This document shows positions 3 to 21,333 of a stretch of 64,000 nucleotides of DNA, one piece after another (positions within the stretch are counted from its first letter, which is position 1; each line of letters begins with the position of its first letter). Both the position numbers and the translations under genes were made by a program. Source of the DNA: Pseudobutyrivibrio ruminis (GTDB lineage Bacteria > Bacillota > Clostridia > Lachnospirales > Lachnospiraceae); the NCBI GenBank assembly GCA_015057305.1, contig SVES01000007.1, positions 32,991 to 96,990 of the forward strand. The letters run 5' to 3'. The notes beneath the pieces are model-generated. The model had not been told where the DNA came from and did not search any database. It worked only from the letters and a program-made list of their open reading frames with translations.

Positions 3-476
3 TTTGAGAATACTCCTACGCTGGAATTTTTGTATCGCATTGATCAAACTATCAATATTCTTGGGGAGAAGACTACCGAAGCGACCCTGAGAGAAGCTGC
101 AAATAATATGGCGGAAAGTCTATCGATAGAGCTTATAGATTTCAGTGTATATGCAGATATTAAGACCACGCCACATAGATATCAGTATTTTTTAGAAATA
201 GGTAGAAATCCAAAGGGGTATTCAAACGATGTTATAAGAGAGACCCTTGAAAAGGAACTTCTAAAGCTTGCACCGGCGCTGAGAGACTTGGTGGATAGGG
301 GATTATGCCAGGTAATAAAGGTGAATTTTTTGCAACAGGATACATATTTGTTGTGGAGAGATATGGCTATATACAATGGAACGAATTCCAATCAGCTTAA
401 GCCTATACACATAATCAGAAATGAACAACAGAGAAAATTTTTCTTTGGACTGACAGAAAGTAGTAGCGAACCTTAA
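3..476 (+). CDS. C-terminal part of a GH3-type (auxin-responsive-promoter/acyl-amido synthetase-like) protein, truncated by the window edge
   Basis: Frame is open to the window edge (FENTPTLEFLYRIDQTINILGEKTTEATLREA...). 'FLYRIDQTINILGEKTTE' and 'YQYFLEIG' resemble the GH3 C-terminal domain. Confidence 0.7.
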   Translation, partial: FENTPTLEFLYRIDQTINILGEKTTEATLREAANNMAESLSIELIDFSVYADIKTTPHRYQYFLEIGRNPKGYSNDVIRETLEKELLKLAPALRDLVDRGLCQVIKVNFLQQDTYLLWRDMAIYNGTNSNQLKPIHIIRNEQQRKFFFGLTESSSEP

Positions 477-511
477 AGAATCGTAGGGTGTTTTCCTATA
501 GGAGAGTACAG

Positions 512-2777: not shown

Positions 2778-4532
2778 ATGAAGCTAATAATACGGTGCAT
2801 GAAACAAAAGGACAGAGTAATATCTGCTTTTATAGTATTATTTGTGATTGTTGAGGTCCTTTTGGAAACGAAAATACCAGTTGTCATGGGAGATATTTCT
2901 GCTCTTTTACAAAGCAAAACTATGTCCTTTGAGGATGTAAGAAGTAAAGGGCTTGAGATGATAACTTATGCCCTGTTTTCTTTTGTTGCGTCTTCAGTTG
3001 TGTGCTTTTTGCTTATCGACTTGGCATGTAGAGTAAGTCATGTACTTAGGGTGAAGGTTTTCGAGAAAATACTTGGTTTTTCTCTATCTGAAATATCTTC
3101 CTTTGGAACAGGTACTCTTATTTCCAGATGTAACAATGATATTGATACGGTGCAGGGCTTTGTAACCCAAAACTTTATAAATATTGTAAGGGCTCCAATA
3201 TTATTTATCATTGTTTTCTACAGACTTTCTTCATCTAATGGTGTATGGATTGCTATGTCCCTATTTGCTGTAGCAATTATGATTACACTTGTCTTTTTCA
3301 TGTTTATATCAATCGCCCCTCTTGTGAAAATAGGAAGCATAATAGGGGATAGAATGGTATCTGCTATTCATGAGCATATTTATGGTATTCGCCTTATTCA
3401 TTTAGGTAATAAATTTTCTTCCCAGGAAAAAAGCTATAACAAAATAAATAAAGAATCAGCCGATTTTTCAATAAAAGTTAAAAGAATTACCAGCTTTTTT
3501 TCTCCTTTTACAGGGATGATTATTTATGGATTAACTTTAGCAGTATATATATCTGGGGCATTTATAATGCAACATCATGAATTAAGTGACCAAACAGCAG
3601 ATTTTGCAGCTATGGTTTCGTATGTTTCATTTATTACTTTTTTGTTCAATGCCTTGGTAAATATAATACTGGTTGTTATGACCATTCCAAGTCTTTTAAA
3701 TGCGCAGAGACGACTTATTGAAGTTCTAGATCAAGAGAATTCTATTGTTGATGGTAGTTTTGAGGGAATACCCGACAGCGAAGGCAGTGTGGAATTTAGA
3801 AATGTTTCTTTTACATATCCAAGCTCAAGAGCGGATGCTATCAGTGACATTAGCTTCAAAGTAAAAAAAGGACAGACTGTTGCTATTATCGGAGGAACAG
3901 GATCAGGAAAGACTACCGTTTTAAATCTAATACTTAGGCTTTATGAGGCCACAAAGGGAGAAATACTTGTTGATGGAATCCCTGTTAAGGATTATAAACT
4001 AAAGGATTTAAGGAATAGAATAGGCTATGTGCCACAGCAAAACTATCTGTTTTCTGGGACAATTGCTGAAAATATAGGCTATGGGGAAAATGGTAGATTT
4101 AAGGCCACTATAGAGGAAATTGTAAAAGCAGCCCAAGTAGGTCAGGCAGATGCTTTTATTAGGGCCAAGGAAAAGGGCTACTATGAAGGTGTTCAAGCAG
4201 GCGGAACTAATTTTTCAGGAGGACAGAGACAACGACTTACTATATCACGAGCGCTGTGCCGTGATCCTGAAATATATGTATTTGATGATTCCTTTTCTGC
4301 TCTTGATTTTGAGACTGATGCCAAGCTAAGAAAGGCTTTAAAAAAGACCACAGCAGGGGCAACAGTAATAATGGTATCCCAGCGCATTGCAAGTGTAAGG
4401 GATGCAGATTTGATTCTTGTTATGGACAATGGCAGGATTGTAGGTTCGGGAACTCATGAGCAGCTACTTGAAGGATGTAGCGTATATAAAGAGATTGCAA
4501 TATCACAGAATCCTAAGGAGAAGGCTGTATGA
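2778..4532 (+). CDS. ABC transporter, fused permease/ATPase (exporter half 1)
   Basis: Walker A GGTGSGKTT, signature FSGGQRQRLTISRAL, Walker B IYVFDDSFSALD, N-terminal TM segments. Confidence 0.92.
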   Translation: MKLIIRCMKQKDRVISAFIVLFVIVEVLLETKIPVVMGDISALLQSKTMSFEDVRSKGLEMITYALFSFVASSVVCFLLIDLACRVSHVLRVKVFEKILGFSLSEISSFGTGTLISRCNNDIDTVQGFVTQNFINIVRAPILFIIVFYRLSSSNGVWIAMSLFAVAIMITLVFFMFISIAPLVKIGSIIGDRMVSAIHEHIYGIRLIHLGNKFSSQEKSYNKINKESADFSIKVKRITSFFSPFTGMIIYGLTLAVYISGAFIMQHHELSDQTADFAAMVSYVSFITFLFNALVNIILVVMTIPSLLNAQRRLIEVLDQENSIVDGSFEGIPDSEGSVEFRNVSFTYPSSRADAISDISFKVKKGQTVAIIGGTGSGKTTVLNLILRLYEATKGEILVDGIPVKDYKLKDLRNRIGYVPQQNYLFSGTIAENIGYGENGRFKATIEEIVKAAQVGQADAFIRAKEKGYYEGVQAGGTNFSGGQRQRLTISRALCRDPEIYVFDDSFSALDFETDAKLRKALKKTTAGATVIMVSQRIASVRDADLILVMDNGRIVGSGTHEQLLEGCSVYKEIAISQNPKEKAV

Positions 4533-6280
4533 AAGATAAAGCAATTTATATTGTAAGTAGAATGAAGGTTTTTTTTAAGCCATATTTCATTAAGTTTCTT
4601 GCTGTAATGATTATTGGAGGTTTGGGAGCCTTTTGTAACATTCTTCTTCCAAGTCAAATTGAAAAAATATCAGGAATAATCGAAAGCCAGATAGGACATG
4701 AATTAAATATGAATCTGCTTTTAAGATCTGGGATTACATGTGGTTTTATTATTATTGGAATGTTTATATGTAACTATGTATTTGGGTTCGGCATGGAGGT
4801 TTGCTCCCAGAGAATATCTGCAGATATTAGAAGCGCAATAAATACAAAGATTAATAAGATTTCCATGAAGCAGTTAGATCAGATGTCTGCTGGAGATTTG
4901 ATAGCTAATATGACTACAGATGTTAATACCATAAGCATAGCTATTTCACAATCATTAGGATTGTTATTTGCCAATGCTGTTATTTTAATCGGGGCAATAG
5001 TAGCCATGCTTTTAAAAAGTGTGCCGCTTGCAATATGTGTAATATCATTCACAGTATTAGGAGTTGTAATTAGTACCTTGGTTTCAGGAAGAACCATTTC
5101 AATGCGAGATGCACTTAGAAGGGAACAGGCAAACATTAACGGAATGGTGGATGAGTCCTTAAATGGATTCATGGTAATTCGTGCATATAATTCTGAGGAT
5201 GATATAATCGACACCTTTAGGTCTACAAGCGAAAGATACATGCTAAACCTTAAAAGGAGTCAATTTGTTACAGAAGAACTAACTCCAATTATGACAATGC
5301 TAAATAATCTAACCTATGTTGTTGTCTGCATAGTTGGAGCATACTTGATGGTTAGCGGCAGTAAAACAGTAACAATAGGTGTTATGATTGCATTTTTGTT
5401 ATATGCAAGAATGTTGGCAAATCCACTTACCTTTTTTGCTAGTGTCATAAATATGCTGGCTCTTACCATGGTTAATTGTCAAAAGATAATAAACGTACTT
5501 GATATGCCAGAAAATACTGATGAAGGTGTTGATGAAATATCAGGTGAACCTGGAGGTGTGGAATTCAAGGACGTGAGGTTTGGATACACCGATGACAAGG
5601 AAGTTATTCACGGATTTAATGCCGACATAAAGCCTGGAATGAAGGTGGCTATTGTTGGACAAACAGGAGCAGGAAAGACCACACTTGTAAATTTGCTTAT
5701 GCGTTTTTATGAGACGAACAGCGGGCAGATTTGTATAGATGGAACCAATATAAAGGACATTCCACGTGAGAGATTACATCAAATACTTGGAATGGTTATG
5801 CAGGAAAACTACCTTTTTAATATAAGCATCAGAGACAACATTAAATATTTTGCACCAGATGCCACTGAGGAGGAGCTTCAATCAGTTGTGGAAAAATGTT
5901 CTCTTGGACATTTTATAGAAACCTTGCCTAAGGGAATTGATACGATTTTATCAGAAGAGCTGGCGGTATCTTCTGGACAAAAACAGCTTATTTCAATTGC
6001 ACGAACCATGATAAAAAAGCCTAAGATACTGATTCTTGATGAAGCAACATCTTCAGTAGATACTAGAACGGAGCTTATGATACAAAAAGCCCTAGATGAG
6101 CTTTCAAAAGACCGCACAAGCTTTGTAATTGCTCACAGGCTTTCTACCATTAGAAATGCTGATGTTATATTCGTAATGCAGGATGGAGATATTGTTGAGA
6201 CTGGAAATCATGAACAGCTGCTAGCGAAAAATGGTATATATACAAGAATTTATAATAGTCAGTTTGAGACTGCATCTTAA
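4529..6280 (+). CDS. ABC transporter, fused permease/ATPase (exporter half 2)
   Basis: Walker A GQTGAGKTT, signature-like SSGQKQLISIARTM, Walker B ILILDEATSSVD. Overlaps the previous gene (ATGA). Confidence 0.92.
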   Translation: MKDKAIYIVSRMKVFFKPYFIKFLAVMIIGGLGAFCNILLPSQIEKISGIIESQIGHELNMNLLLRSGITCGFIIIGMFICNYVFGFGMEVCSQRISADIRSAINTKINKISMKQLDQMSAGDLIANMTTDVNTISIAISQSLGLLFANAVILIGAIVAMLLKSVPLAICVISFTVLGVVISTLVSGRTISMRDALRREQANINGMVDESLNGFMVIRAYNSEDDIIDTFRSTSERYMLNLKRSQFVTEELTPIMTMLNNLTYVVVCIVGAYLMVSGSKTVTIGVMIAFLLYARMLANPLTFFASVINMLALTMVNCQKIINVLDMPENTDEGVDEISGEPGGVEFKDVRFGYTDDKEVIHGFNADIKPGMKVAIVGQTGAGKTTLVNLLMRFYETNSGQICIDGTNIKDIPRERLHQILGMVMQENYLFNISIRDNIKYFAPDATEEELQSVVEKCSLGHFIETLPKGIDTILSEELAVSSGQKQLISIARTMIKKPKILILDEATSSVDTRTELMIQKALDELSKDRTSFVIAHRLSTIRNADVIFVMQDGDIVETGNHEQLLAKNGIYTRIYNSQFETAS

Positions 6281-6312: not shown

Positions 6313-9207
6313 TTGTTTTTTCTGGATGAATTTGAAAAACAGGTAATTACAAAAAAGGATTTCAAAGCCCTTACAGATGATTACGGGAAAAGAAGTGTGA
6401 CGTATAAACAGCTTGATAATCTTTCCAATAAAGTAGCCAACAAGCTTGTTTCAATGGGAGTAAAAAAGGGATCTTCCGTAATAATTATTCTCCCAAGAAT
6501 TGCTGAATATGTTGCTTGTGAAATTGCAATTTTTAAAATAGGCGCTGTTGTTGTTCCTCTTATTCCTGAGTATCCCAAGGATAGAGTGGAATTCATTGAA
6601 AAAGACAGTGATGCAGTGATTGTTATAAGGGAAAGCTTTTTTGATGGAATAGAGCTCTTTTCAGACGAGGAGGTAGTATGTGCTGATGCCAGTGATTCTG
6701 ATAGAGGAATGATTCTATATACATCAGGTTCTACAGGCAAGCCTAAGGGTGTGGTTTATACAAGATGCAATATAGATGCTCAGGTAATAAGAAAACTAGA
6801 AAATGTGAGAGATATTTCCCCACTTGTTTTTGCAGCCTCTGCAACTATGTCATTTTGCGTAACTGTGACAGAGTATTTTAGGACGCTAGCTATAGGAGGA
6901 CATGTACATATTATTTCTGACGAAGTTAGATCTGATTCTAGTAAGCTTTCAGACTACTATAAAGAAAATAATATCACCGCAGGATTTATTAGTCCGAGGA
7001 TACTTAAAAATTTTATATGTAAAAGTGAATGCTTAAAGCGAGTTTTTACTGCCAGCGAAAAAGTTGTAAATATTTATTCTCCTGATTTTGAAATAGTAAA
7101 CGCCTACGGACAAAGTGAAACAGTAGGTACTATTACTGAGTTTTTGATAGACAAAACCTATGACAATACCCCAATAGGGAAACCATTAAAAGGGATTGAG
7201 GCTATTGTTGTCAATCAGGAGGAAGAAGAGGTTTTAGATGGAGAGGAAGGCGAGATTTGTATTATTGGAAATTTGCCTTGTGAGTATAATAATCTGCCTG
7301 ACCAGACCAACCAGGTATTTAAAAAGCTTCCTGATGGTAGAGTTTTGATTCGTTCCGGTGATATAGGAAAAAAATTGCCTGACGGTAATTTGTTATATCT
7401 TAACAGAAATGACTGGATGATTAAGATTCACGGTCAAAGAGTAGAGCCAGGTGAAATAGAAACGGTTATGAATACTGTAGAAGGCATTACTGGTTCTATT
7501 GTGAAGGCCTTTGAAAATGAAGACGGAACGATGCTTTTATGTGGCTTTTTTACAGAGGCAAAGGCTGTAAGTCACGAAAACATAAAGGAAAAGCTAAAGT
7601 CAGCTCTTCCAGATTATATGATTCCTGGAGTCTTTGTAAAGATGGATGGTTTTCCTGTTAATGCCAACGGCAAAATTGCCAGAAAGGAAATTCAAAAGCC
7701 TGATTTAAGCACGCTCACTGTAGACTATGAAAAACCAGTAGGTGAAATAGAGGAAGCTTTATGTAATGCAATGGAGCAGCTTTTAAATATAAAAAGGATT
7801 GGACGAAACGACAATTTCCTAGAGCTTGGTGGCAATTCGTTAAATGCTGTTGCACTATGCTCACTTTGCAAAATAGAGTCTCTTGCTCCTCAAATTGTAA
7901 TGCTGGGGCAGACTCCTAAGAAAATAGCGGAGCTTTTAGCAGAAAATAGCTTTTATCCAAAGCCTAAGCTTACGGTTTCAAAGGAACTAAAAAAGGAATA
8001 TCCACTTTCTCATTCTCAGAAGTATCAGTATGAATTATGTAAAAAAAATGGAAAATCTATCGATTGTATTGATACAGTATATTTCTTTAAGCTGGACGAG
8101 GATGTTGATATTAAAAAGCTTAAAGCGTCAGTTGAAGCTACTGTAGATGCTCACACAATCTACAAATCACATATTGATATAGATAATAATAAGCTTATAG
8201 TAGATGAAGCTGTTTTCAAGGTAGAGGATGTAGCTATAAAGGGGCAAGATTTTGAGGAGTATAGAAAAAATATTTATAAAAGAAAGCGTAATCTAAAGAC
8301 TGATCCATTACTTGAAGCAAAGCTGCTTCATATAGACGATGGAAGAATCTACCTTTATATGAACCTGTGTCATCTTGTATATGATGGAAAAACTGTAAAC
8401 AACCTGCTTAAAGAGATTTCAAAAAGGTATAATAATGAACCTTATGAAACGGAGCGGGCCACAATATTTGACCTTATTGATAACGAATGTAGTATCAGTG
8501 AGGACAAGAAGCTTATAGAAGAAGCAAAAAAAGTATTTGCATCTTATTATGAGGGAGTGAAGCCTGCCTCGGTGTTTGAAGATGGAAAGAAATATGAGAC
8601 TGCATTTACAGTGAAGATTTTAGAAAAGGAAAGTCAAAGTGAAATAGATGATTTTCTTAAGAAAAACAGTATTTCTATTTTGACGCTGTTTCAGGCAGCA
8701 GCAGAAATTACCATAAGAAAAATGTTTAACCTGGAGGATTTCTGCTACATGAATGTTCATGATGGAAGAGGTAATCAGATTCTTGATAACAGTCATGGAG
8801 TTTTTGCCAAATCTGTATTTATACATTCTGGACAGGTAGAATACGACAAATTAAGTAGGTATTTCAAAGAAATAGAAAAGCAATATCAAAAGCTTGTGTA
8901 TTATGACATTGTTGACACATTTGAATTAGCATCAGAATATCCTCAAGTGATGTCAGGAATAACTCTAAATCTAAGGGACATAGGTGGGCTTTTCATTACT
9001 CTTGACGGGAAAAGGTTTTTTTCTGAATTTCTTGAAGAGATAAGTGAAGCGTACAAACCATTTACGGACTTTGATTTTATTATTAATAGATTTCCAAAGG
9101 GGTACGGATTTCTTGTTATTATCGCATCTACAAAGGTATCAAAGTCCTTTGCCGAGGAGTTTGTAAAGTGTTTTGAAGAAACAGTGCTTCATATTTTATT
9201 CAAATAG
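6313..9207 (+). CDS. Nonribosomal peptide synthetase, domains A-T-C
   Basis: A domain LYTSGSTGKPKGV, NAYGQSE, RSGDIGKKLPDG, NANGKIARKE; T domain DNFLELGGNSLNAV; C domain CHLVYDG. TTG start; the ATG at 6306 runs into a stop. Confidence 0.9.
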   Translation: MFFLDEFEKQVITKKDFKALTDDYGKRSVTYKQLDNLSNKVANKLVSMGVKKGSSVIIILPRIAEYVACEIAIFKIGAVVVPLIPEYPKDRVEFIEKDSDAVIVIRESFFDGIELFSDEEVVCADASDSDRGMILYTSGSTGKPKGVVYTRCNIDAQVIRKLENVRDISPLVFAASATMSFCVTVTEYFRTLAIGGHVHIISDEVRSDSSKLSDYYKENNITAGFISPRILKNFICKSECLKRVFTASEKVVNIYSPDFEIVNAYGQSETVGTITEFLIDKTYDNTPIGKPLKGIEAIVVNQEEEEVLDGEEGEICIIGNLPCEYNNLPDQTNQVFKKLPDGRVLIRSGDIGKKLPDGNLLYLNRNDWMIKIHGQRVEPGEIETVMNTVEGITGSIVKAFENEDGTMLLCGFFTEAKAVSHENIKEKLKSALPDYMIPGVFVKMDGFPVNANGKIARKEIQKPDLSTLTVDYEKPVGEIEEALCNAMEQLLNIKRIGRNDNFLELGGNSLNAVALCSLCKIESLAPQIVMLGQTPKKIAELLAENSFYPKPKLTVSKELKKEYPLSHSQKYQYELCKKNGKSIDCIDTVYFFKLDEDVDIKKLKASVEATVDAHTIYKSHIDIDNNKLIVDEAVFKVEDVAIKGQDFEEYRKNIYKRKRNLKTDPLLEAKLLHIDDGRIYLYMNLCHLVYDGKTVNNLLKEISKRYNNEPYETERATIFDLIDNECSISEDKKLIEEAKKVFASYYEGVKPASVFEDGKKYETAFTVKILEKESQSEIDDFLKKNSISILTLFQAAAEITIRKMFNLEDFCYMNVHDGRGNQILDNSHGVFAKSVFIHSGQVEYDKLSRYFKEIEKQYQKLVYYDIVDTFELASEYPQVMSGITLNLRDIGGLFITLDGKRFFSEFLEEISEAYKPFTDFDFIINRFPKGYGFLVIIASTKVSKSFAEEFVKCFEETVLHILFK

Positions 9208-9219
9208 AGGAGAGGGAAT

Positions 9220-12200
9220 ATGCAAAAGAAACCAAACACATTCAGAACAGCATTTGAAGAAAATGTAATTAAATACAAAGACAAAATTGCAGTGATAGAC
9301 CCTGATACCGGTGTAAGCCTTACTTATGAGCAGCTTGATATAGAGTCTCGTAGAATTGCTGCGAAGCTTAAGGAAGCAGGAGTAAAAAAGGGTGATGCCG
9401 TGGCGATTGTGCTACCACACAGTCTGGAATTCATTATGTCTATGCTGGCAGTAGCGAAGCTTGGAGCCGCATTTGCACCATTAAATGCAGCATATCCTAA
9501 GGATAGACTTCAGTACATTTACAATGATTGCAAGGCAAAGGTTATAATTACTCCAGATTATCTGAAGGATGTATCAGAATATACACCGATTTCGGAGAAC
9601 ACACCAATTGAGCCAAGTGATCCAGCGGTTTTAGTGTACACATCTGGTTCTACAGGAAACCCTAAGGGAGTGCTCCTTGATCACGATGCAATATTCGATA
9701 ATGCTGTTAGAAATCTGGACTTTGGTAACTTTAAAGAGACGGAAGTGGTTGGCCTTGGAGCACCGTTTTTCTTCATTGCAGGAGCAACCTTTATTTTCGG
9801 TGGATTGGTCTTTGGTGCAACCCATGTTCTCATTTCTATGGCTGCCATGCGTGATCCAGTCCGCCTTGCAACTCTTTTGGCAGAACAGAAGGTAACATAT
9901 ACGTTTATTAGTCCTAAGATGCTTAAGTATTTTAAGACAGCTCCTGGGTCAGTCTTAAGACTTGTTATGGCTGGTAGTGAACGCCTCTCAGGATTTTATT
10001 CAGATGAATTTGAGATTATAAATTGCTATGGAATGACAGAAACTTGCGGTGGCTGTCTGTCATTCTACTTAGATAAGGCTTATGACAATACACCAGTAGG
10101 TAAACCTTTGGGCGATATGAGGGCTTATGTTCTTGATGAAAATGGAAATGAGGTGGAGGAAGGAGAGCTTTGTCTGACAGGTAAGGTTGCAACCTGTTAT
10201 ATTAACAGACCTGAGGAAACAGCCAAAACCTTTGTTGAAAATCCTTTTATTGAAAAAGACGGTAATCCAAGAATGCTAAAAACTGGAGATTTGGTACGTC
10301 GGCTTCCTGATGGAAATATTCTTTATGTTAATCGTAAGGATTGGATGATTAAGATTAATGGTCAGCGTGTTGAGCCTGGAGAGATTGAAATCAAAGTTAG
10401 AGAAATAGAAGGAGTTAAAGATGCAGCTGTAAAGGACTTTACTGATAATACAGGTCAAACCTTTATTGTGGCTTATTACGTTGCTGACTCTCAGATGGAT
10501 GATGAAGTAATAAGAAAGGAATTAAGTAATAAGCTACCTGATTACATGGTACCTTCATTTTATGTATGGCTTGAAAGACTGCCAATTAATGCAAATGGTA
10601 AGCTTGACAGAAATGCACTAAAAAATCCTGATACTTCCGCAAAAAAAGCATCTTATGTGGCACCGGAAAATGAGCTTCAGGAAAAAATTGTAAAAGCTTA
10701 TGAGAAGGTTTTATTGCTTTCAAAAATAGGTATCGATGATGATTTTTTCTCTTTAGGTGGAGATTCCATTAGAGTAGTCATGCTGCAAAAGGCATTAAAG
10801 GATGAAGGAATTACTGTTGCAGCAAGTGATATTTTTGCAACACATACTCCAAGGGCTCTTTCGGCTGTAACTGGACAGCAATCAAAACTTGCAGCTTATA
10901 AAGGACATGATGCTGATTCATATCCTCTGACTCATGCTCAAATGAGTATTTATATGGATTGTCAGATGCCAGGTAAGGATACTGCCTACAATAATACAAT
11001 TGGATTGTTCTTACCTAACGAAAAAGATGGAACCAGGCTTTTAAATGCAGCTGATAAAGTGCTTAATAGTTATCCTGTTTTTATGTCAGCAGCAAGGCTT
11101 GTGAATGGGGTACCATCTTTAGTGCTACTTAAGGGTGAAAAGATTCAAGTTAAGCAGGTGTCAAGTGATGAGACAGATAGAAATAAACTTGTGGAAAGTG
11201 TCAATACACCATTTTCTTTAGAGGATGGTCCTCTTTGTCGAGGAGCAGTATTTACTACACCTGAAGGTTTGTTTTTAGTTTGCGTGGCACATCATATTGT
11301 AAGTGATGGTACTTCTATGTCTATTTTGGCAAATAATATTGCCGCAGCCTATAACGGTAAAGAGCTTGAAAGCGAGGATATGAGCAATTTCACACTGTCT
11401 CTTTATGAAGCTGAGCATAAAGAGGAGATGAAGGCCGATGAAGATATTTACCGAAAGATGTTAGAAACACTAGATGGAAACACCTCTCTGTTTGAAGATG
11501 AAGGCATTATATGTGAGGAAAATACTAATAGCTTAGGTGTATATCATACTACAGTATTTTCTCATAAGAGTGAGCTTTCAGGAGTACTTACAGATTCCCT
11601 GACTAAAAATGGTGTAACGGAATCAAGTCTTTTTATGACAGCTTATGCTTACACATTAGGACTACTGTGTGGTCAGAAGGATGTAGTATTCTTTGCAGGA
11701 GAAAATGGCCGTCATGACCCTGTGCTTATGAATACAGTAGGCATGCTTGTGCACAATATTCCTGTTTGTGTACACCTTGATGAAAAGAAGATAGGAATGG
11801 TTTTGGCAAAGGAAATACAGGAGCTTTTCCATGAGCTTGTTAGCCATGACAATGTGGATTATGCTTCTCTACTTAGTGAGTATTCTGTTAGCTCAGATAA
11901 TTTCTTTGTTTATCAAGGAGAAATGTTTGCAGGTGTTTCAATGGATGGCAAGAATATCCCTATGGAGCTCTTTGCTCCAAAGGATGCTATGAATCCATTA
12001 ACTTTACATGTAATCAAACAGGCAGATGGAGATTATTTCCTTGCTTTTGATTATGATGCAAGAAAATATAAAGAAGACACAATAAAGCGCATGGCTTCTT
12101 TGTTCATTCAGGTTGTGGAAGGCTTATGTAAGGAAGAAAAGCTTTCAGATATCAGACTTACAACTGATGATAATATTTTGGAAATGGATAATCTCAATGA

Positions 12201-15096
12201 TACAAAAAAGGATTATCCTGTTACCGATATAATTTCAATGTATAGAGAGGCAGTAGAAAACTATCCTGATAACAAGGCAGTTGTTTTTGGGGACAAGATT
12301 TTAACCTACCGACAGCTTGATGAAATAACAGAACGCCTTGCTGGATATTTGTGTTCAAAGGGCATAGGTAGAGGAAAGGTTGTTTCAATTCTTATACCAC
12401 GTTGTGAGTATATGCCAATAACTGCTATAGGTGTTCTTAAGACAGGTGCTGCCTACCAACCACTTGATTCAACCTATCCAACAGATCGTTTGACACTAAT
12501 GATGGAAGATGCAAATTGTGATTTGCTTATAGCTGAAGAAAGTTTACTGGAAAAAGTGCCTAATTATAAGGGGGATATACTGCTTATTAAAGATATCGAG
12601 ACGCTCCCAGCCTGCGACAGAATAAAGCCAAATCCTTCTCCAGAGGACTTGTTTATCTTGCTTTATACCTCTGGCTCCACTGGCGTGCCAAAGGGCGTAA
12701 TGCTTGAGCATAGAAACCTGGCTAACTTTGTGTGCTGGTATCAGGATTACTATGGATTTGATGCCACCTGTCGTATGGCCGCATACGCAAGCTTTGGCTT
12801 TGATGCTTGTATGATGGATATGTATGTTCCACTTACCGTAGGCGGTATGCTAATGATAGTGGAAGAAGATGTACGTTTGGATTTAAAGGCTATTGAGAAG
12901 CTATTTATAAAATGGGAAATTACTCACGCCTTTATGACTACTCAAGTAGGACGTCAGTTCTATTCAACTGCGAAGGTACCTTCCCTAAGATACCTTTCAA
13001 CAGGTGGAGAAAAGCTTGCAGCACTTACACTTAGACCGGAGGTTAATACCAAGCTTTGTAATGTCTATGGACCTACAGAGTGTTCAATTTTTACTACACT
13101 TGAACCTATCGAAAAGAATTATGAAAGAATTCCAATTGGTGGACCTATTTCAAATTACAAGTGTTATGTTGTGGATGAAAATATGCGACGCCTGCCACCT
13201 ATGGTTCCAGGAGAGCTTTTGATTGCAGGACGTGGTGTATCAAGAGGCTATTTAAATAGAGAAGACCTGACAGATAAAGCATTTGTGCCTAATCCATTTT
13301 CAAATGAAAAGAATTACCTACGAGTATATCATACAGGTGATGTTGTGCGGTTACTTCCAGATGGAAGCTATGACTTCGTTGGCAGAAACGACAGTCAGGT
13401 TAAAATTAGAGGTTTTAGAATTGAACTAAGTGAAATTGAAGCTGTAATACGTGAGTATCCAGATATTAAAGATGTTACCGTGCAAGCATTTGATAATGAG
13501 GGCGGTAGTGGAAAATTTATTGCAGCCTATATTGTTTCAGATAAAGAAATAGATATTACTTCTCTTCATGAGTTTATTGGTCAGCAAAAGCCTTATTATA
13601 TGATACCTGCAGTAACTATGCAGATTGATAGTATTCCGCTTAATCAGAACCAAAAGGTAAATAAGAAGGAATTACCAAAGCCAGTGAGAAAGGCCGTTGA
13701 AATTGTGCCTCCAGCAAGTGATATGGAACAATCTCTTTATGACATCTGTTCTGAAATCGTTAATTATGAAGAATTTGGAGTAACAGCTCCGCTTGAAGAA
13801 ATTGGCTTTACATCTTTGTCATACATAGAGCTGGCATCAAAGGTAATAGATGTGCTAGGAGTAGAATTAAAGCTTTCTGATTTGATGGCAGGAGGAACCA
13901 CAATACGAAGCTTAGCTGAGCTTGTGAGCAAAACTGAAACGGTATCAAAGAAAAAGACTGCCCATAAGGAGCGTTATCCGCTGGCTCCTCAGCAGTATTC
14001 GCTTACAGTTCCTAGTCCTACTGCTGATATGTACAGGGAATTTATCTTTACAGACCAGTGGCAAGATGCTGTTGCAATAAGAAGAACATTTGTAAATATT
14101 ATAAACAGCTTCCCATATCTATATACAACCTTTAGATTTGAGGATGGACAGTGGTATCAAATACCATATAAGGGTGAACTAATCACTGAAAGTGATATTC
14201 AAATTATTGAAAAGGAGCCTACAGAAAAAGAAATAGATGATTTCTGCTATTCATATGATATTAAAACAGCTGATAGACTGTTTGATTTGAACGTATATAA
14301 AGGTGAGAAGATTGTTGTATTACTTCATGTACACCATATTCTTATGGATCATGTATTTGTTGAAAAGTTTGTTTCTTACATAAGTAAGGCTTTAAGGGAC
14401 CCTGATTTTGCCCCAGCAGAACAGTCAGATTACTTTGAATACGCTGAAGAAAATGCTGTTACTCCAAAACCAGTAGAGGGTAAAGAACTTCATAGGGTGG
14501 AAAAAACTGAACTTGTACAGGGCGGTGTGGACATTAAGAAAATGAAGCCTGTAATGGATAAGTATAAGCTTCAGCCTGCAGAATATTTATTTGCTGTTTT
14601 AAGTCAGGCATATCTGGATGTGATGGGGCTTGACGTGGCTGTAATCCGCAATATATTTGGTGGTCGAAACGATGCCAGATATTTTGATACAGCAGGATAT
14701 TTCCCAATGGCCATTCCGGTTCCAGTAAAGAAGGATTCAGATATACTATCTCATGTGAAACATGATATTGTAAGCTCTATTGCACGAAGTCAACCTAAGG
14801 ATGACTATGGGTACAATGCACTTGTTAATCATGATTATGAGTGGCCATATATTACATTTAACTGCATGGAATATATTTCCCAGACAAAAGACTTCGAATT
14901 GATATCACTTTTAGATAAAAATCCAGTGGCTTCAGAGGAAATCAAGACTTTGACAAATCATATTAACTTTTTATGTTTCGTGGTTCCTGAAAAGGGAGCA
15001 GTTATAAATCTTAATTACGATCCGTCTACAATTGATGCAAAGAAAGCCCAGTCTATACTTGACAGGGTAATAGAAATTGCAAATTACTGGAACTAA
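9220..15096 (+). CDS. Nonribosomal peptide synthetase, domains A-T-C-A-T-C, no thioesterase or reductase domain
   Basis: A: VYTSGSTGNPKGV / NCYGMTE; T: DDFFSLGGDSIRV; C: AHHIVSDG; A: LLYTSGSTGVPKGVMLEHRNL / NVYGPTE; T: EEIGFTSLSYIEL; C: VHHILMDH. No GxSxG-type TE at the C-terminus. Confidence 0.92.
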   Translation: MQKKPNTFRTAFEENVIKYKDKIAVIDPDTGVSLTYEQLDIESRRIAAKLKEAGVKKGDAVAIVLPHSLEFIMSMLAVAKLGAAFAPLNAAYPKDRLQYIYNDCKAKVIITPDYLKDVSEYTPISENTPIEPSDPAVLVYTSGSTGNPKGVLLDHDAIFDNAVRNLDFGNFKETEVVGLGAPFFFIAGATFIFGGLVFGATHVLISMAAMRDPVRLATLLAEQKVTYTFISPKMLKYFKTAPGSVLRLVMAGSERLSGFYSDEFEIINCYGMTETCGGCLSFYLDKAYDNTPVGKPLGDMRAYVLDENGNEVEEGELCLTGKVATCYINRPEETAKTFVENPFIEKDGNPRMLKTGDLVRRLPDGNILYVNRKDWMIKINGQRVEPGEIEIKVREIEGVKDAAVKDFTDNTGQTFIVAYYVADSQMDDEVIRKELSNKLPDYMVPSFYVWLERLPINANGKLDRNALKNPDTSAKKASYVAPENELQEKIVKAYEKVLLLSKIGIDDDFFSLGGDSIRVVMLQKALKDEGITVAASDIFATHTPRALSAVTGQQSKLAAYKGHDADSYPLTHAQMSIYMDCQMPGKDTAYNNTIGLFLPNEKDGTRLLNAADKVLNSYPVFMSAARLVNGVPSLVLLKGEKIQVKQVSSDETDRNKLVESVNTPFSLEDGPLCRGAVFTTPEGLFLVCVAHHIVSDGTSMSILANNIAAAYNGKELESEDMSNFTLSLYEAEHKEEMKADEDIYRKMLETLDGNTSLFEDEGIICEENTNSLGVYHTTVFSHKSELSGVLTDSLTKNGVTESSLFMTAYAYTLGLLCGQKDVVFFAGENGRHDPVLMNTVGMLVHNIPVCVHLDEKKIGMVLAKEIQELFHELVSHDNVDYASLLSEYSVSSDNFFVYQGEMFAGVSMDGKNIPMELFAPKDAMNPLTLHVIKQADGDYFLAFDYDARKYKEDTIKRMASLFIQVVEGLCKEEKLSDIRLTTDDNILEMDNLNDTKKDYPVTDIISMYREAVENYPDNKAVVFGDKILTYRQLDEITERLAGYLCSKGIGRGKVVSILIPRCEYMPITAIGVLKTGAAYQPLDSTYPTDRLTLMMEDANCDLLIAEESLLEKVPNYKGDILLIKDIETLPACDRIKPNPSPEDLFILLYTSGSTGVPKGVMLEHRNLANFVCWYQDYYGFDATCRMAAYASFGFDACMMDMYVPLTVGGMLMIVEEDVRLDLKAIEKLFIKWEITHAFMTTQVGRQFYSTAKVPSLRYLSTGGEKLAALTLRPEVNTKLCNVYGPTECSIFTTLEPIEKNYERIPIGGPISNYKCYVVDENMRRLPPMVPGELLIAGRGVSRGYLNREDLTDKAFVPNPFSNEKNYLRVYHTGDVVRLLPDGSYDFVGRNDSQVKIRGFRIELSEIEAVIREYPDIKDVTVQAFDNEGGSGKFIAAYIVSDKEIDITSLHEFIGQQKPYYMIPAVTMQIDSIPLNQNQKVNKKELPKPVRKAVEIVPPASDMEQSLYDICSEIVNYEEFGVTAPLEEIGFTSLSYIELASKVIDVLGVELKLSDLMAGGTTIRSLAELVSKTETVSKKKTAHKERYPLAPQQYSLTVPSPTADMYREFIFTDQWQDAVAIRRTFVNIINSFPYLYTTFRFEDGQWYQIPYKGELITESDIQIIEKEPTEKEIDDFCYSYDIKTADRLFDLNVYKGEKIVVLLHVHHILMDHVFVEKFVSYISKALRDPDFAPAEQSDYFEYAEENAVTPKPVEGKELHRVEKTELVQGGVDIKKMKPVMDKYKLQPAEYLFAVLSQAYLDVMGLDVAVIRNIFGGRNDARYFDTAGYFPMAIPVPVKKDSDILSHVKHDIVSSIARSQPKDDYGYNALVNHDYEWPYITFNCMEYISQTKDFELISLLDKNPVASEEIKTLTNHINFLCFVVPEKGAVINLNYDPSTIDAKKAQSILDRVIEIANYWN

Positions 15097-15119: not shown

Positions 15120-17153
15120 ATGAAGAATTATGAATTGTCAGTAATAATACCTTTACATAATACAGACCTTACCATGTTTGCAAATTGTGTAAAGTCTCTT
15201 AAAAATCAGGAGCTTGGATTTGATAAAATTGAGCTTATTGTTGTGATGCATAACTGTAATGCTGAGACATTTGAAGGGGTGAGAAACCTACTTTCTGGCC
15301 CCGAAAATGTCATGCTTCTAGAGCTTAACAATGAGGTCCGCTCGCCATCAAGTCCTAGAAACTATGGTATAGATAAGGCAACAGGAGATTACATTACATT
15401 TTTGGATGCAGATGATATGCTTACCCCTGAATGCTTAAGGCTTTCCCTTAAGTATATAAAGGAATCTGGTGCTGATGTTTGCCATTTTAGAAAAAAGCTT
15501 TTGTTTGAGACTGAGAATCCTGTTTTTGTTAATGAACTTGAACTTTGGGATCACACTCAGGAAACCATAGTGGTGGATCGCAATACCTGGAATGAGCATG
15601 AGCTTTTTGCAGGCGCATGGGGTATGTCCACAGGAAGACTATACAGAAGAAAGCTTCTTATTGATAACAATCTAAAATTCGATGAGAGTATAAAGTTTGC
15701 TGAGGATTATCATTTTGTAATTGGCGTGTATGCTAAGGCAGATAAAATCTGTCTTGCACCTCAGCTTATTGGTTACATCTACTATGTAAATGGCGGTTCT
15801 TTAGTACAGACAACATCCATAACAGAAGAACGCTTGCTTGACTATGTTTCAGGCTTTAAGAAGGTATTTGACCGAGGTTTAGAAGCTGGATTCTGGATGA
15901 GTGAAACAATGGGTTCCCTAATGCTTATCATCATCAACTGGATGTTCGGCTGTAAGGATTTATCAGATGAAGGAAGAAAAAAACTAAAGGAGCTTATGGA
16001 ACCATACATCCGAAGCTTTTCACCAATACCTCCTTCAAAGCAATATACAGGTGGCAGAAATGACAGAATAAACACCATGTTAATTAAGTATATCTTAAGG
16101 GAAGAACCTCCTATATATACTTTTATAGAAAGAGGAGATGAGGGCGAAGGACATACTGCTATTGATAAACAAAAGGATGCGCTTGCAAGAATTATGCGAA
16201 ATGGAATCAAAAGCGACTATTCAAGGCATTATGGCTTTACGGAAATTGCCACTATTGAGGAGTATCAAAAGAGACTGCCAGTTTCAAACTATGAATCCTA
16301 TTATCCTATGATACGACTTACTTTTGAGATGGCAGAAAGGGGAATCTTTACTGACAATGATATTATTTCCTATGCTGTTATAGATGAAAAGAATAATCGC
16401 ATCCCTATTACATATAAGGCAATAGTGCCATATATTCATGGTTTAAGACGGCTACTTGGCTGTTGTAAGACATTTGTTTTGTCAGAGGCACTTCCTTTTG
16501 AAGGCTCAAAACTTACCTTGGATAACAAATACACTAATTCAATTTTTGGCATAATGCTAAAGGAATATTTGGCAGAGGCTGAAAGCTTCGGTTGTGGTTA
16601 TTCCAGCTTTACAACACCTAAGGAATATTTATTTCCAGAGAAGGTCTGTGATATGACTATTATGCGGTGGGTATTTGCTTTAAAGGATAGGGATGTAGAA
16701 ACCATATTTTCACCTGATAGCAAGACCCTTTCACTTAGAAAAAAAGAGCTTAAGGATAATTGGCAGGCTATATGCAAGGAAATAGAAAAGTCCGATGTAG
16801 AAAGGGCTAATGAACTAAGAAAGATATTTGAATCTCAGGAAGATATTTCATTTAATATGCTTTGGCATAAGCTTAAAAGGGAAATTTGCTGGGATATGGA
16901 ATACTATTTTGATGAGTACGCTCTTTATGGAAAAATCAATGAAGATGGCTACATTGTACTTGATCTGGATAATGTTTTTTATGAGTTTTATAAGCCGGGG
17001 GAGGATGTATTTTACACAGTGGCAGGTATTTCGAAAGAAGAGGAGTATCATGTGCTAATAAGTAATCTATGTGGACTTTACCGGTTTGATACAGGTTTAT
17101 CTGTAAGATGTTTTGATGTTAACGACCAAAGTGTGGTTGTAAAAATAATCTAA
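15120..17153 (+). CDS. Fusion protein: N-terminal GT2 glycosyltransferase plus C-terminal GH3-like domain
   Basis: Residues 1 to about 300 are GT2-like (LSVIIPLHNTD...FLDADDMLTPE). The C-terminal half resembles GH3: RNGIKSDYSRHYGFTEIATIEEYQKRLPVSNYESYYPMIRL...FYEFYKPGED...EEYHVLISNLCGLYRFDTGLSVRCFDV. Confidence 0.75.
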   Translation: MKNYELSVIIPLHNTDLTMFANCVKSLKNQELGFDKIELIVVMHNCNAETFEGVRNLLSGPENVMLLELNNEVRSPSSPRNYGIDKATGDYITFLDADDMLTPECLRLSLKYIKESGADVCHFRKKLLFETENPVFVNELELWDHTQETIVVDRNTWNEHELFAGAWGMSTGRLYRRKLLIDNNLKFDESIKFAEDYHFVIGVYAKADKICLAPQLIGYIYYVNGGSLVQTTSITEERLLDYVSGFKKVFDRGLEAGFWMSETMGSLMLIIINWMFGCKDLSDEGRKKLKELMEPYIRSFSPIPPSKQYTGGRNDRINTMLIKYILREEPPIYTFIERGDEGEGHTAIDKQKDALARIMRNGIKSDYSRHYGFTEIATIEEYQKRLPVSNYESYYPMIRLTFEMAERGIFTDNDIISYAVIDEKNNRIPITYKAIVPYIHGLRRLLGCCKTFVLSEALPFEGSKLTLDNKYTNSIFGIMLKEYLAEAESFGCGYSSFTTPKEYLFPEKVCDMTIMRWVFALKDRDVETIFSPDSKTLSLRKKELKDNWQAICKEIEKSDVERANELRKIFESQEDISFNMLWHKLKREICWDMEYYFDEYALYGKINEDGYIVLDLDNVFYEFYKPGEDVFYTVAGISKEEEYHVLISNLCGLYRFDTGLSVRCFDVNDQSVVVKII

Positions 17154-17168
17154 TTGGAGGGATTTACA

Positions 17169-18521
17169 ATGAAGGTAGTAGTGTATGGCACAAGCTCATC
17201 AGTGGGCTTTATAAGATTTGTAAATGAGTTTACAGCTATTCCAAACATGAATGAACAGTGGCAGAGGATACGCAAACATTTTGATGGCTATGAATTTACT
17301 ATTGTCACAACTATGGGGGCTGCATCACATTTAGTTGACTATGATGAAAATAAAAAAGAAATTGCACCAGATGGTGTTAAGCTGATTGTTCTTCCACCTA
17401 CTGCTGACACAGATACTTATGTTGAAACCATTAGAAAGGAAGCTCCATCCATAGCAATCGCTGCCTCATATTTTGGCGGGTCTGTGGACTGGGAGACATT
17501 AAAGGACGCTCTTATTGCCGAGGAATTAAAAAAGGTTGGAATAAAAGCTGTTAGCAATTCTTTGTTTGCGGCAGAAACCTTTTTTGATAAATGGACTACT
17601 CATAATGTACTTAGGGAAAAGGGATTTCCAGTTGCAAAAGCTACCCATATTCCTGCGGTATATCAGAAATTAGCAAAAGAAAATCCGGCACTTTTTTCTA
17701 ATGTGTATTTGGATTTAGCTTTTCACAGGATTAGGGAAATGGAATTTCCAGTAATCGTGAAGGCGGCTGGTGCATCAGGCTCCAGTGGTATATTTGTAGC
17801 AAAGAATTTTGAAGAAGCAAAAGAAGACATTTTATCCCGTGATGACTCTTCAGATTTGATTATTGAGGAGATGCTTAAAGGAGAGCAGTTCGGAACCGAG
17901 ATTCATGGAACAAAAGGCAACTACACTATACTCCCACCGTTTAAATGCAAGCTTGATGAAAGGGGGGTGTTAGATCCGCAAATCAAAGTGAAGATTGGAC
18001 CTATAACAGACGAAAAATATAGAATTGAAGAGCTTCGCTCTATGCTTAGACGACTTGCAGAGGAAATGGGTATAGAAGGCTGTGCACAGGTTGATCTTGC
18101 ATTTGATGGTGATAAATGGAGCATTATTGAAGTTAATCCTAGAATATCTGGAATGACTGCTGCCTCAGCAGCACTTGAAAGTCGCTATGCGCTGGAGGTT
18201 GTTATAGAGTCATGCCTGGATGAAGGGATTAATTATGATATGCCAAAGATTCTAGAAAAATGTATTTCCTTTGGTACTATTATAGAATCATATGATGATA
18301 TAGACAAAATGAAGACAGAACCACATGTAAAATATATGGAAAAAGGTTCGCCGCTGTTCTTAAATTCTGACAAGAAAATATACACAGCGAACATCATTTT
18401 AGGTGGCTTTGAAAATTATGCTGAAATGGCACAAGAAATTGAAAGATTACATAAGTTTTACCCAACAGTTATTAACGAACTAACGGTCCTTTATGCAAAA
18501 GAAATAGCTAATCATAACTAG
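17169..18521 (+). CDS. ATP-grasp ligase-like protein
   Basis: FPVIVKAAGASGSSGIFVAKNFEEA...LIIEEMLKGEQFGTEIHG...EVNPRISG, ATP-grasp fold. ATG 17169 follows TTGGAGGG. Confidence 0.8.
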   Translation: MKVVVYGTSSSVGFIRFVNEFTAIPNMNEQWQRIRKHFDGYEFTIVTTMGAASHLVDYDENKKEIAPDGVKLIVLPPTADTDTYVETIRKEAPSIAIAASYFGGSVDWETLKDALIAEELKKVGIKAVSNSLFAAETFFDKWTTHNVLREKGFPVAKATHIPAVYQKLAKENPALFSNVYLDLAFHRIREMEFPVIVKAAGASGSSGIFVAKNFEEAKEDILSRDDSSDLIIEEMLKGEQFGTEIHGTKGNYTILPPFKCKLDERGVLDPQIKVKIGPITDEKYRIEELRSMLRRLAEEMGIEGCAQVDLAFDGDKWSIIEVNPRISGMTAASAALESRYALEVVIESCLDEGINYDMPKILEKCISFGTIIESYDDIDKMKTEPHVKYMEKGSPLFLNSDKKIYTANIILGGFENYAEMAQEIERLHKFYPTVINELTVLYAKEIANHN

Positions 18522-18540
18522 TATTACAGAGGGGCAATCA

Positions 18541-19890
18541 ATGAAAAGAATAGTTTTATTTTCAAGCAATAGTAAGCATAGAGATAAGAGTAGTAATTGT
18601 ACCGTATATCCGAAGTGGGCTAACCAGTGGGATGAGGTGGCTGCTCGATATAGTGACTATGAAATATGGCTTGTAGTGCAACTAAACGGTAGATATTTCT
18701 TAGATATAAATGATGGAGAATTGGTAAAAGAGCCAGAGAAAATCCATTTAAAGATTCTTCCTATGGAGGCTAAGCTAAAGGAGTTTATTCAGGCTATTGC
18801 AGAATTAAAACCAGATATTGCAATAGCTATGCCAGGTCCCGTAAGTGGGTATGACTGGAATGGCATTAGGGATGCAGGAATTGCAGAAGGTCTCAGAAAT
18901 CTGGATATTGAAACTATATGCTATTCTGCTGAGACAGCAATGAATTGCTTTGATAAATGGAGAACACACCAGATTCTAAAGGCAAATGGTTTTAGGATAC
19001 CAAATGCACTATATCTTCAACATGAATTATTTACATCTACTAAGCTTGATGCTGTATCCACAGGGAATGTGTACCAAGAACATATTCTTTGGGAAGTGGA
19101 GAATATGGAGATGCCTGTGGTTATTAAGAGCACTACAGGTTCTTCTTCCATGGGAATCCATGTGGCAAAGGATTTTGAGGATGCAAAAAATTATCTTCTT
19201 TCAGAAGAGCTGGTAGAAGATGTTTTAATTGAGCAATTCTTAGATGGTGAGGAATATGGCGCTGAGGTACATGGTTACAAGGAACATTATGTAGTTTCGC
19301 CACCATATAGAATATTCAATACCGTTAAAGGTCAGCTAAATGATCCTCTTGGTGCCACTACCTTGAAATATGGACCTGTCTTAGATGAAAAACTGCATAT
19401 AGAGGAATTGAGAAGCGAGCTTAAAAGAATGGCTGATATCATGGAATTTGCTGGCATTATGGAAATTGATTTAGTGTTGGTAAAAGGTGAATGGTATATT
19501 CTTGAAATCAACAACAGATGGTCTGGGCTTACAACACTTATTACAGCATCTCAGGATAGATATCCTTACGAAGTTTATATCAATCAGGCAGAGGATGAAT
19601 GTCAGTATCTAAATGATGTCAAGAATCTAAAATATGCTCTTCAATTTAAAATGAAGGAAGCTGATAGAAAAACGTTGGAGAATATTTCTGCTGAACCTGG
19701 TATGAAAAGTGTTATCCAGTATGATGTAAGACTACCGGGAAAAGAACCATTTTCCTTTAACGACGCAGTAATGGGGGGATATGATAGCATTGGTGGTCTT
19801 ATAACAGGATTTGAAGCCTTAGCAAGTAAGTATTCGGCGCAGATACTAGAAGGTCTAGTTCAGGCACTTAAGGAAAAGGAAGGATTATAA
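18541..19890 (+). CDS. ATP-grasp ligase-like protein, paralog of the preceding gene
   Basis: MPVVIKSTTGSSSMGIHVAKDFEDA...VLIEQFLDGEEYGAEVHGYKEHY...EINNRWSG, co-linear with 17169-18521. Confidence 0.8.
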   Translation: MKRIVLFSSNSKHRDKSSNCTVYPKWANQWDEVAARYSDYEIWLVVQLNGRYFLDINDGELVKEPEKIHLKILPMEAKLKEFIQAIAELKPDIAIAMPGPVSGYDWNGIRDAGIAEGLRNLDIETICYSAETAMNCFDKWRTHQILKANGFRIPNALYLQHELFTSTKLDAVSTGNVYQEHILWEVENMEMPVVIKSTTGSSSMGIHVAKDFEDAKNYLLSEELVEDVLIEQFLDGEEYGAEVHGYKEHYVVSPPYRIFNTVKGQLNDPLGATTLKYGPVLDEKLHIEELRSELKRMADIMEFAGIMEIDLVLVKGEWYILEINNRWSGLTTLITASQDRYPYEVYINQAEDECQYLNDVKNLKYALQFKMKEADRKTLENISAEPGMKSVIQYDVRLPGKEPFSFNDAVMGGYDSIGGLITGFEALASKYSAQILEGLVQALKEKEGL

Positions 19891-19894
19891 GCTA

Positions 19895-20710
19895 ATGGAT
19901 AATAGCAGGGCAGTTTTATTTGAAAAGGTGCAAAACGCAAGAGACTTGGGAGGTATTATTATCGGTGATAGTCAGATAAAGAGAGGAAAGCTTCTTAGAT
20001 GCGCATCCCTTTCAAATGCTACTGGTGAAGATATTTTAAAGCTTCAAAAGGAATATAACCCTGCTTATGTGGTAGATTTTAGGATGAACCATGAAACAGA
20101 ACAAAGCCCTGATCCTAAGATTCCAGATACATTAAACTATTCTATTCCTGTTTTAGAACTGGAAAATGTACCAGGCCATAAAGCTGACTTCTTTTCACAT
20201 AAAAAAGAAACAAGTGATAGTAGATTACAAAAGCTTATAGAGTTGACAAAATCAGGACTACCAGATGAAAGACTTTACTTATTATTCCTACATTCCGAAA
20301 GGGGAAAGAAGGCTTATACAACTTTTTTCAATTTATTAATACAATTGCCCGAGGATAAGGGTATGGTATGGCATTGTAAGGATGGTAAGGACCGCACAGG
20401 TATAGCTGCCATGCTGTTGCTTTCTGCGCTAGGTGCATCGAATGATGTAATCATGGAGGATTATCTTTTAACCAATAAGCAAAATGAGAAGCCACTATCA
20501 GAATTACGCCATAAGCTTGATGGAGTAGATATTCCAGAAAGTCAGAAGGAAATAATACTATTTATTTCTGGAAGCGTATATGAGCGCTATTTATTATCAG
20601 CCATTAACTGGCTTAAGGAAAATTATGGTGGAGCGTTAGGTTACCTTTCCAAGGAATGCATGGTAGATGAAGCTGCTGTTAGAAAGCTGAAAGAAAAGTT
20701 TCTTGTATAA
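19895..20710 (+). CDS. Tyrosine/serine protein phosphatase-like (Y_phosphatase3 type)
   Basis: ARDLGG...VVDFRMNHE...VWHCKDGKDRTGIAAMLLL (CX5R P-loop). Confidence 0.82.
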   Translation: MDNSRAVLFEKVQNARDLGGIIIGDSQIKRGKLLRCASLSNATGEDILKLQKEYNPAYVVDFRMNHETEQSPDPKIPDTLNYSIPVLELENVPGHKADFFSHKKETSDSRLQKLIELTKSGLPDERLYLLFLHSERGKKAYTTFFNLLIQLPEDKGMVWHCKDGKDRTGIAAMLLLSALGASNDVIMEDYLLTNKQNEKPLSELRHKLDGVDIPESQKEIILFISGSVYERYLLSAINWLKENYGGALGYLSKECMVDEAAVRKLKEKFLV

Positions 20711-20712
20711 AT

Positions 20713-21333
20713 ATGGACGAAATTATTAGTTTTAAAAACACAAAAGTTAATCTTAAACTTGCTGATGATATAGAGTCTATTACAGAAAAGGATTTTGATG
20801 AAATGCTTGATAGACTGCCAGATTGGCAAAGAAAAAAGGCTCTTTCATATTATTTTTTTCCGGATAGAGTTTTATCTGCAAAATCCTTTTTATTGTTGGA
20901 AGAGCAGTTAAAAGAATGCTATGGGATAACAGGAAATATTGAGTTTGAATACGAACAAAAAGGAAAGCCCATATTAAAAGAAAATCGTGATGTTCATTTT
21001 AATATAAGTCATTGTAAAAAGGCTATTTTAACAACGGTATCTACTACACCTGTGGGGTGTGACATAGAAGAAATCCCAGCTGAATTAAATATGAATATAT
21101 GCAATTATTCTTTTAATGAAAATGAATTAAAGGAAATTTTAAATGGGGATAATCCGTGTGTGGAATTCGCAAGGCTTTGGACAATGAAGGAAGCTTTTGT
21201 AAAACTTACAGGAGAGGGAATAACTGAAAACTTACCTAATCTTTTTAGTGAAGACGTCATTAACCGTATTAGTTTTAAAACTAAGGTTTATGAAGAAAAG
21301 GGTTACGTATATACGGTTTGTGTATGGAGATAG
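20713..21333 (+). CDS. 4'-phosphopantetheinyl transferase, Sfp type
   Basis: HFNISHCKKAIL...PVGCDIEEI...ARLWTMKEAFVKLTGEGI. Confidence 0.88.
   Translation: MDEIISFKNTKVNLKLADDIESITEKDFDEMLDRLPDWQRKKALSYYFFPDRVLSAKSFLLLEEQLKECYGITGNIEFEYEQKGKPILKENRDVHFNISHCKKAILTTVSTTPVGCDIEEIPAELNMNICNYSFNENELKEILNGDNPCVEFARLWTMKEAFVKLTGEGITENLPNLFSEDVINRISFKTKVYEEKGYVYTVCVWR

Follow-up and report, generated by a model that had tools for sequence, protein, structure and literature searches.

Introduction

The closest known relatives of the protein analysed here are the GH3 acyl acid amido synthetases, among them plant JAR1/AtGH3.11 and AtGH3.12/PBS3 and bacterial OlsH. The three GH3 motifs have been published for JAR1 as SSGTSQGRPK, YGSSE and GLYRYRLGD, and in OlsH the counterpart of the second Ser in motif I is essential for activity, as seen with S115A (PMC12493201). 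In the GH3 reaction cycle, the C-terminal domain pivots by 180 degrees (PMC11253546). A further point of comparison is given by the TarS-like GT2 glycosyltransferases, in which a GT2 catalytic domain is followed by a non-catalytic C-terminal half.

We analysed a gene in a 64,000-nucleotide stretch of Pseudobutyrivibrio ruminis DNA (contig SVES01000007.1, hereafter the window), whose product resembles both groups. The N-terminal and middle domains of the GH3 synthetases (PF03321, PF23571) are homologous to the window protein, and the core residues P387, W582, E622-F623, G652 and Y654-R655 are common to both. In contrast to those synthetases, the window protein has lost motifs I-III, lacks the C-terminal domain and is fused behind a GT2. 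It has the TarS-like order of a GT2 catalytic domain and a C-terminal half that is probably non-catalytic; it differs from TarS in that its accessory part descends from an adenylating ligase and in that its setting is an NRPS cluster. In the searchable literature, outside which most subscription journals lie, we came across neither a pseudoenzyme branch of the GH3 family nor a GT2-GH3 fusion. The fusion marks a set of Lachnospiraceae clusters, so far uncharacterised, whose products appear to be exported, glycosylated acyl- or peptidyl-compounds.

Domain organization of the fusion protein

The gene is an uninterrupted reading frame with an ATG start on the forward strand, and it codes for a single protein of 677 residues with the following parts.

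15120..17153, +, GT2-pseudoGH3 fusion gene, 677 aa (intact reading frame; Pfam GT2 and GH3)
15120..15839, +, GT2 domain, residues 1-240 (PF00535 match at residues 7-124, E 9.9e-19; best PDB matches are GT2 enzymes, e.g. 5tze)
15405..15416, +, GT2 DXD motif D96-A97-D98-D99 (D96, D98 and D99 invariant in 12 fusion proteins)
15702..15707, +, GT2 acidic pair E195-D196 (invariant in 12 fusion proteins)
15840..16139, +, linker region, residues 241-340 (diverges more than the GT2 half in close pairs)
16140..17150, +, pseudo-GH3, residues 341-677, N-terminal and middle GH3 domains without the C-terminal domain (Pfam; AtGH3.12 alignment)
16371..16406, +, lost GH3 motif I, Y418-P429, YAVIDEKNNRIP against GH3 SSGTxGxxK-IP (alignment)
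16902..16931, +, lost GH3 motif II, YYFDEYALYG; the Glu of [SA]SE is Tyr600 (alignment)
17073..17111, +, lost GH3 motif III, GLYRFDTGLSVRC; the Asp of YRxGD is Leu660 (alignment)

An earlier note, made from the sequence alone, had assigned the N-terminal half to GT2 and called the C-terminal half GH3-like, and both assignments hold. The GT2 half keeps its catalytic residues, with the class features of a DXD motif and a downstream acidic pair. Its best PDB match is 5tze/5tz8; 5tze is TarS, a GT2 enzyme whose C-terminal part has an accessory role. In the C-terminal half, PF03321 (the GH3 N-terminal domain) matches residues 347-569 with E 4.1e-16, PF23571 (GH3_M) matches residues 614-668 weakly (22.3 bits, against a cut-off of 23.6), and a Pfam search of the window protein gave no match to PF23572 (GH3_C). 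A profile built from the GH3 half of the window protein and its relatives retrieves every plant GH3 of known structure from the PDB (10 distinct sequences, E 4e-46 to 6e-39). The homology is therefore not due to chance, and the GH3 assignment is secure at the level of sequence. AlphaFold models of the GH3 half and the whole protein, with only two sequences as input, had a mean pLDDT of 41.6 and 35.2, respectively.

We also considered a frameshift or assembly artefact. This was rejected, since an independent metagenome-assembled genome, L003 (labelled Blautia), shows the same architecture, losses and neighbours.

The GH3 half lacks the elements of adenylation

The motifs were read from a joint alignment with plant AtGH3.12 and about 45 bacterial GH3s. 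The segment YAVIDEKNNRIPIT, noted earlier as a degenerate phosphate loop, aligns on motif I LSSGTSGGAQKMMP; in aligned form the window protein reads SYAVID---EKNNRIP and has no SSGTxGxxK. At motif II, YxSSE is absent and a Tyr occupies the position of the Glu, and directly before it the window protein has a 20-residue in-frame deletion relative to L003. The tail GLYRFDTGLSVRCFDV, which had been taken as a GH3 hallmark, is indeed motif III, but with its Asp replaced by Leu, so that GLYRYRxGD has become GLYRFDTGL. No intact ATP loop emerged at any of the three motifs after proper alignment.

The loss thus extends further than the single loop first noticed, to three motifs and the entire C-terminal domain. 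Only 13 residues follow motif III before the stop codon, and the next gene has its own GGAGG ribosome site and an ATG at 17169. A GH3_C remnant hidden downstream of the reading frame was rejected, as there is no space for it before that gene. Across the fusions, the ATP-site residues vary while GH3 core residues stay (F373, P387, Y394, P429, A563, W582, E622, F623, G652 and R655). The sequence shows that neither the mobile C-terminal domain nor any of the three nucleotide motifs is left in the GH3 half of the window protein, and we infer that this half very probably cannot adenylate a carboxylate.

A single fused clade in Lachnospiraceae

A search for the GT2-GH3 architecture in other genomes, which the earlier note had proposed, recovered it from a dozen other Lachnospiraceae genomes, and the fusion genes used here are uninterrupted reading frames. 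The closest is that of L003, with 61% identity over the whole protein and with neighbouring NRPS, ATP-grasp and phosphatase genes arranged as in the window. The other carriers are G052 (two copies), G187, G190, G135 (L029:9434-12016), G529, G652, G712, G704, G454, G505 and G638. The family label comes from NCBI ranks for L003 and, for the other genomes, from kinship labels that place them in the window's family. In G241, GT2 and GH3 are adjacent separate genes, the GH3 being partly degenerate, and in G023 the GH3 part lies at a contig edge.

The fusion is present in at least 5 of 299 genomes sampled across the family, with few candidates per genome scored. It was found in 3 of the 29 genomes of the window's own genus; its distribution is therefore patchy. 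In a sample of 391 genomes of the class, no match outside Lachnospiraceae had a reading frame that could hold the fusion, and a plasmid collection contained no relative of the GH3 half. The two fusions of G052 (L025:6368-8923 and L025:10945-13506) are divergent members of one cluster, separated by two ordinary GT2 genes. Another cluster with a GT2-GH3 fusion also encodes a protein of 687 aa whose single chain has two GT2 domains (L026:3569-5632).

We compared 11 distinct fused proteins with 45 standalone GH3 rows, which include a few duplicates. The second Ser of motif I is present in 1/11 fused and 43/45 standalone rows, the standalone exceptions being one Thr and one row whose reading frame starts after motif I. 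The motif III Asp is present in 1/11 against 45/45, and the motif II Glu in 6/11 against 45/45. Fisher p values for fused versus standalone motifs, 2e-8 and 3e-10, ignore shared ancestry and are descriptive only. The sole fused protein with both the motif I Ser and the motif III Asp is that of G135. The comparison confirms that the degenerate ATP site is a clade-wide property of the fusions, G135 excepted, that reaches beyond the window protein.

In the maximum-likelihood tree, all fused GH3s together with those of G241 and G023 form one clade with 100/100 support. The window GH3 half is nearest to L003 and then to one of the two G052 copies (G052a), and G135 is among the deepest branches. Five fused proteins are without the C-terminal domain (window, L003, G454, G505 and G638); a tree that holds these together, as a single loss would, is rejected (AU p 0.0037), and the domain was lost at least twice in the fused clade.

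G135 and the G241 pair belong to the same clade as the window protein and likewise combine GT2 with GH3 close to an NRPS-type gene. Unlike the window protein, G135 keeps the three motifs and the C-terminal domain, and G241 has the halves as separate genes. The family runs from an intact fused ligase (G135) through a partly degenerate split pair (G241) to fusions that are dead but full-length and to dead ones that also lack the C-terminal domain, and this graded series makes the loss of chemistry and the gain of a new role directly testable. The most parsimonious account is that a working GH3 was fused once and then lost its ATP site. Read from the aligned family, motif loss is shown to be old and to be shared within one GT2-GH3 fusion lineage of Lachnospiraceae. 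The ancestor was probably a bifunctional enzyme for glycosyl transfer and GH3 amide synthesis, as still seen in G135, and the ligase half probably died later in the other lineages.

Purifying selection on the GH3 half

Among the window-type truncated fusions, G505 and G638 are the one close pair, and their dN/dS amounts to 0.028 for the GH3 half and 0.027 for the GT2 half (Nei-Gojobori; approximate, since dS is near 1). For G529 and G712, the values are 0.106 and 0.055, respectively. These ratios show that the presumably dead GH3 half is under purifying selection in the close pairs. Between the window and L003, synonymous sites are saturated and the GH3 halves are 57% identical in amino acids.

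With G052a as outgroup, the unique changes in window and L003 number 32:18 in the GH3 half and 14:25 in the GT2 half (Fisher p 0.011). From this relatively faster change and the 20-residue loss, the GH3 half may still be eroding in the window lineage. The divergence of the two halves is weakly correlated (Spearman 0.31), which we do not take as co-evolution.

Genomic setting of the fusion

The fusion gene is one of 13 genes that form a co-directional run, with small gaps between them. The run begins with a STAS-APH protein and a standalone GH3, and its parts in the window, with the fusion between the NRPS and ATP-grasp genes, are as follows.

3..476, +, C-terminal end of the standalone GH3 (567 aa), an early gene of the run (PF23572, E 9.4e-14)
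488..1639, +, PGA_cap-type protein (PF09587, E 5.5e-55)
1660..2751, +, second, ordinary GT2 (PF00535, E 8.4e-32)
2778..6280, +, two MsbA-like ABC half-transporters, 2778-4532 and 4529-6280
6313..15096, +, two NRPS genes, A-T-C and A-T-C-A-T-C (HHxxxD motifs)
17169..19890, +, two ATP-grasp ligases (the first with its ATG at 17169 behind GGAGG, the second at 18541-19890)
19895..20710, +, tyrosine-phosphatase-family protein (PF13350, E 1.9e-50)
20713..21333, +, phosphopantetheinyl transferase, last gene of the run (PF01648, E 2.9e-12)

The last NRPS gene (9220-15096) ends in a condensation-type domain (HHILMDH), and no thioesterase was found in either NRPS gene. With such an ending and no thioesterase, the NRPS may hand its product over to an external acceptor. 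Scans for promoters and terminators gave no clear excess over shuffles. Genes for paired ABC half-transporters, further GT2s and membrane acyltransferases recur at other fusion loci, as do NRPS-type genes, and every fusion neighbourhood examined has NRPS or condensation-like genes nearby.

Candidate roles of the GH3 half

That the GH3 half might be a non-catalytic module had been one suggestion of the earlier note, and this reading has good support, as the loss is common to a fused family that is monophyletic and under purifying selection. We hold with middling confidence that the protein is a GT2 with a GH3-derived pseudoenzyme half that acts as a non-catalytic acceptor-binding module. In such a protein, the GT2 half would transfer a sugar, and the GH3-derived half would no longer make acyl-adenylates and would serve the GT2 instead. 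Most likely, the former acyl-acid/amino-acid-binding fold would hold or present the acceptor to the GT2 active site. The acceptor would be an acyl- or peptidyl-bearing intermediate from the neighbouring NRPS or condensation-type enzymes, and the glycosylated product would leave through the paired MsbA-like ABC transporter. We argue for acceptor binding from the ancestry of the GH3 half and its gene neighbours, and the adjacent GT2 and GH3 genes of G241 fit a GT2-GH3 complex. The recurrence of the fusion across Lachnospiraceae suggests that a dead enzyme has been kept as a helper of a sugar transferase in peptide-making clusters.

The same neighbours also bear on a docking or scaffold role, in which the dead GH3 half would position the GT2 on the assembly line and leave the small-molecule acceptor untouched. 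Its binding partner would be the terminal condensation domain, a condensation-like protein or a carrier protein; we regard this role as possible but rather unlikely. Only 24 bases separate the end of the terminal condensation domain from the fusion gene, an NRPS gene abuts the fusion in L003, and condensation-like proteins adjoin it in G052, G187, G190, G529, G712 and G454. Moreover, conservation at the domain level without catalytic residues is the pattern of a scaffold too. However, gene adjacency is not contact, and the condensation-like neighbours, a recurring family of 390-445 aa with an H-x-x-D-like motif, have no significant Pfam match and resemble the condensation domain of the operon weakly (hhalign E 3e-4, probability 39%).

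A repurposed active site, the other suggestion of the earlier note, found no support in residue conservation. Here the GH3 half would catalyse acyl transfer from a pre-activated acyl-carrier or acyl-CoA donor, for which ATP motifs are unneeded. The GH3 fold binds acyl acid and amine, as is established for plant GH3s, the clusters hold carrier proteins, with a phosphopantetheinyl transferase in the window operon as well, and the half is under purifying selection. Against this, no set of polar residues conserved in the fused but not the standalone GH3s was seen in the comparison, and this speaks against a rebuilt catalytic site; only a few positions are conserved specifically in the fused proteins (e.g. 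D366, L400, T431 and D468), and they form no evident catalytic set. The repeated loss of the C-terminal domain also speaks against this reading, which we consider improbable. We give as little credence to the more specific version in which the GH3 half, after fusion, became an ATP-independent partner that joins carrier-borne acyl or peptidyl groups to the sugar product; if true, it would add a novel type of acyl-transfer module to NRPS-type clusters.

The GH3 half could instead act, as a regulator or a structural partner, on the active-type GH3 whose gene lies about 15 kb upstream in the same operon, a reading that we find highly improbable. That protein, the one ending at 476, is a 567-aa GH3 (L004:17764-19467) that lies mostly upstream of the window and has all three Pfam GH3 domains and intact motifs. 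It falls in a different part of the GH3 tree from the fused clade, and the separate clades also exclude a recent duplication of it as the source of the GH3 half. An active and a pseudo-enzyme side by side, as the earlier note had imagined, therefore describe this operon as far as sequence can tell, but not a general working pair. In G052, G187 and G190, no GH3 other than the fused one exceeds the Pfam cut-off (genome completeness 99% for G190 and 75-84% for G052 and G187), and in G505 and G638 only the fused GH3 matches in a profile search; an obligate active-pseudo pair is not general for this reason.

It is most improbable that the GH3 half is a functionless, decaying remnant on its way to being lost. 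The progressive loss of the motifs, then of the C-terminal domain and then of 20 more residues in the window protein would fit such decay, as would its relatively faster change in the window lineage. On the other hand, purifying selection is equal and strong on both halves in G505/G638, the GH3 halves of the window and L003 are still 57% identical despite saturated synonymous sites, and the fusion frames are uninterrupted.

An ATP-using ligase with a non-canonical nucleotide site has next to no likelihood, for although the motif III Arg is still present, as are several core residues, all three motifs have gone and most lineages differ in the residue found at each position, which points to relaxed constraint and not to a new fixed motif.

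Further genes of the fusion clusters

The PGA_cap protein at 488-1639 has the lasso peptide epimerase model MslH as its best NCBIfam match, far under the cut-off. A fusion of a STAS domain with an APH-type kinase domain stands beside a GH3 or GT2-GH3 gene in two genera (L004:16537-17730 and L027:9363-10529). Members of the 390-445-aa family, whose motif is of the H-G-x-x-D type, were seen at L025:5011-6324, L026:14737-16059, L027:13146-14462, L027:4531-5829, L071:12044-14676, L072:11739-15671, L073:16314-17642, L086:17477-18649 and L087:10631-13265; they are possibly distant condensation/acyltransferase-fold proteins. Finally, tandem pairs of standalone GH3 genes occur in other families of the class (G763:C21:19262-22622, G729:C7:48519-51879, G800:C1:3058685-3061935 and G890:C1:2620062-2623301).
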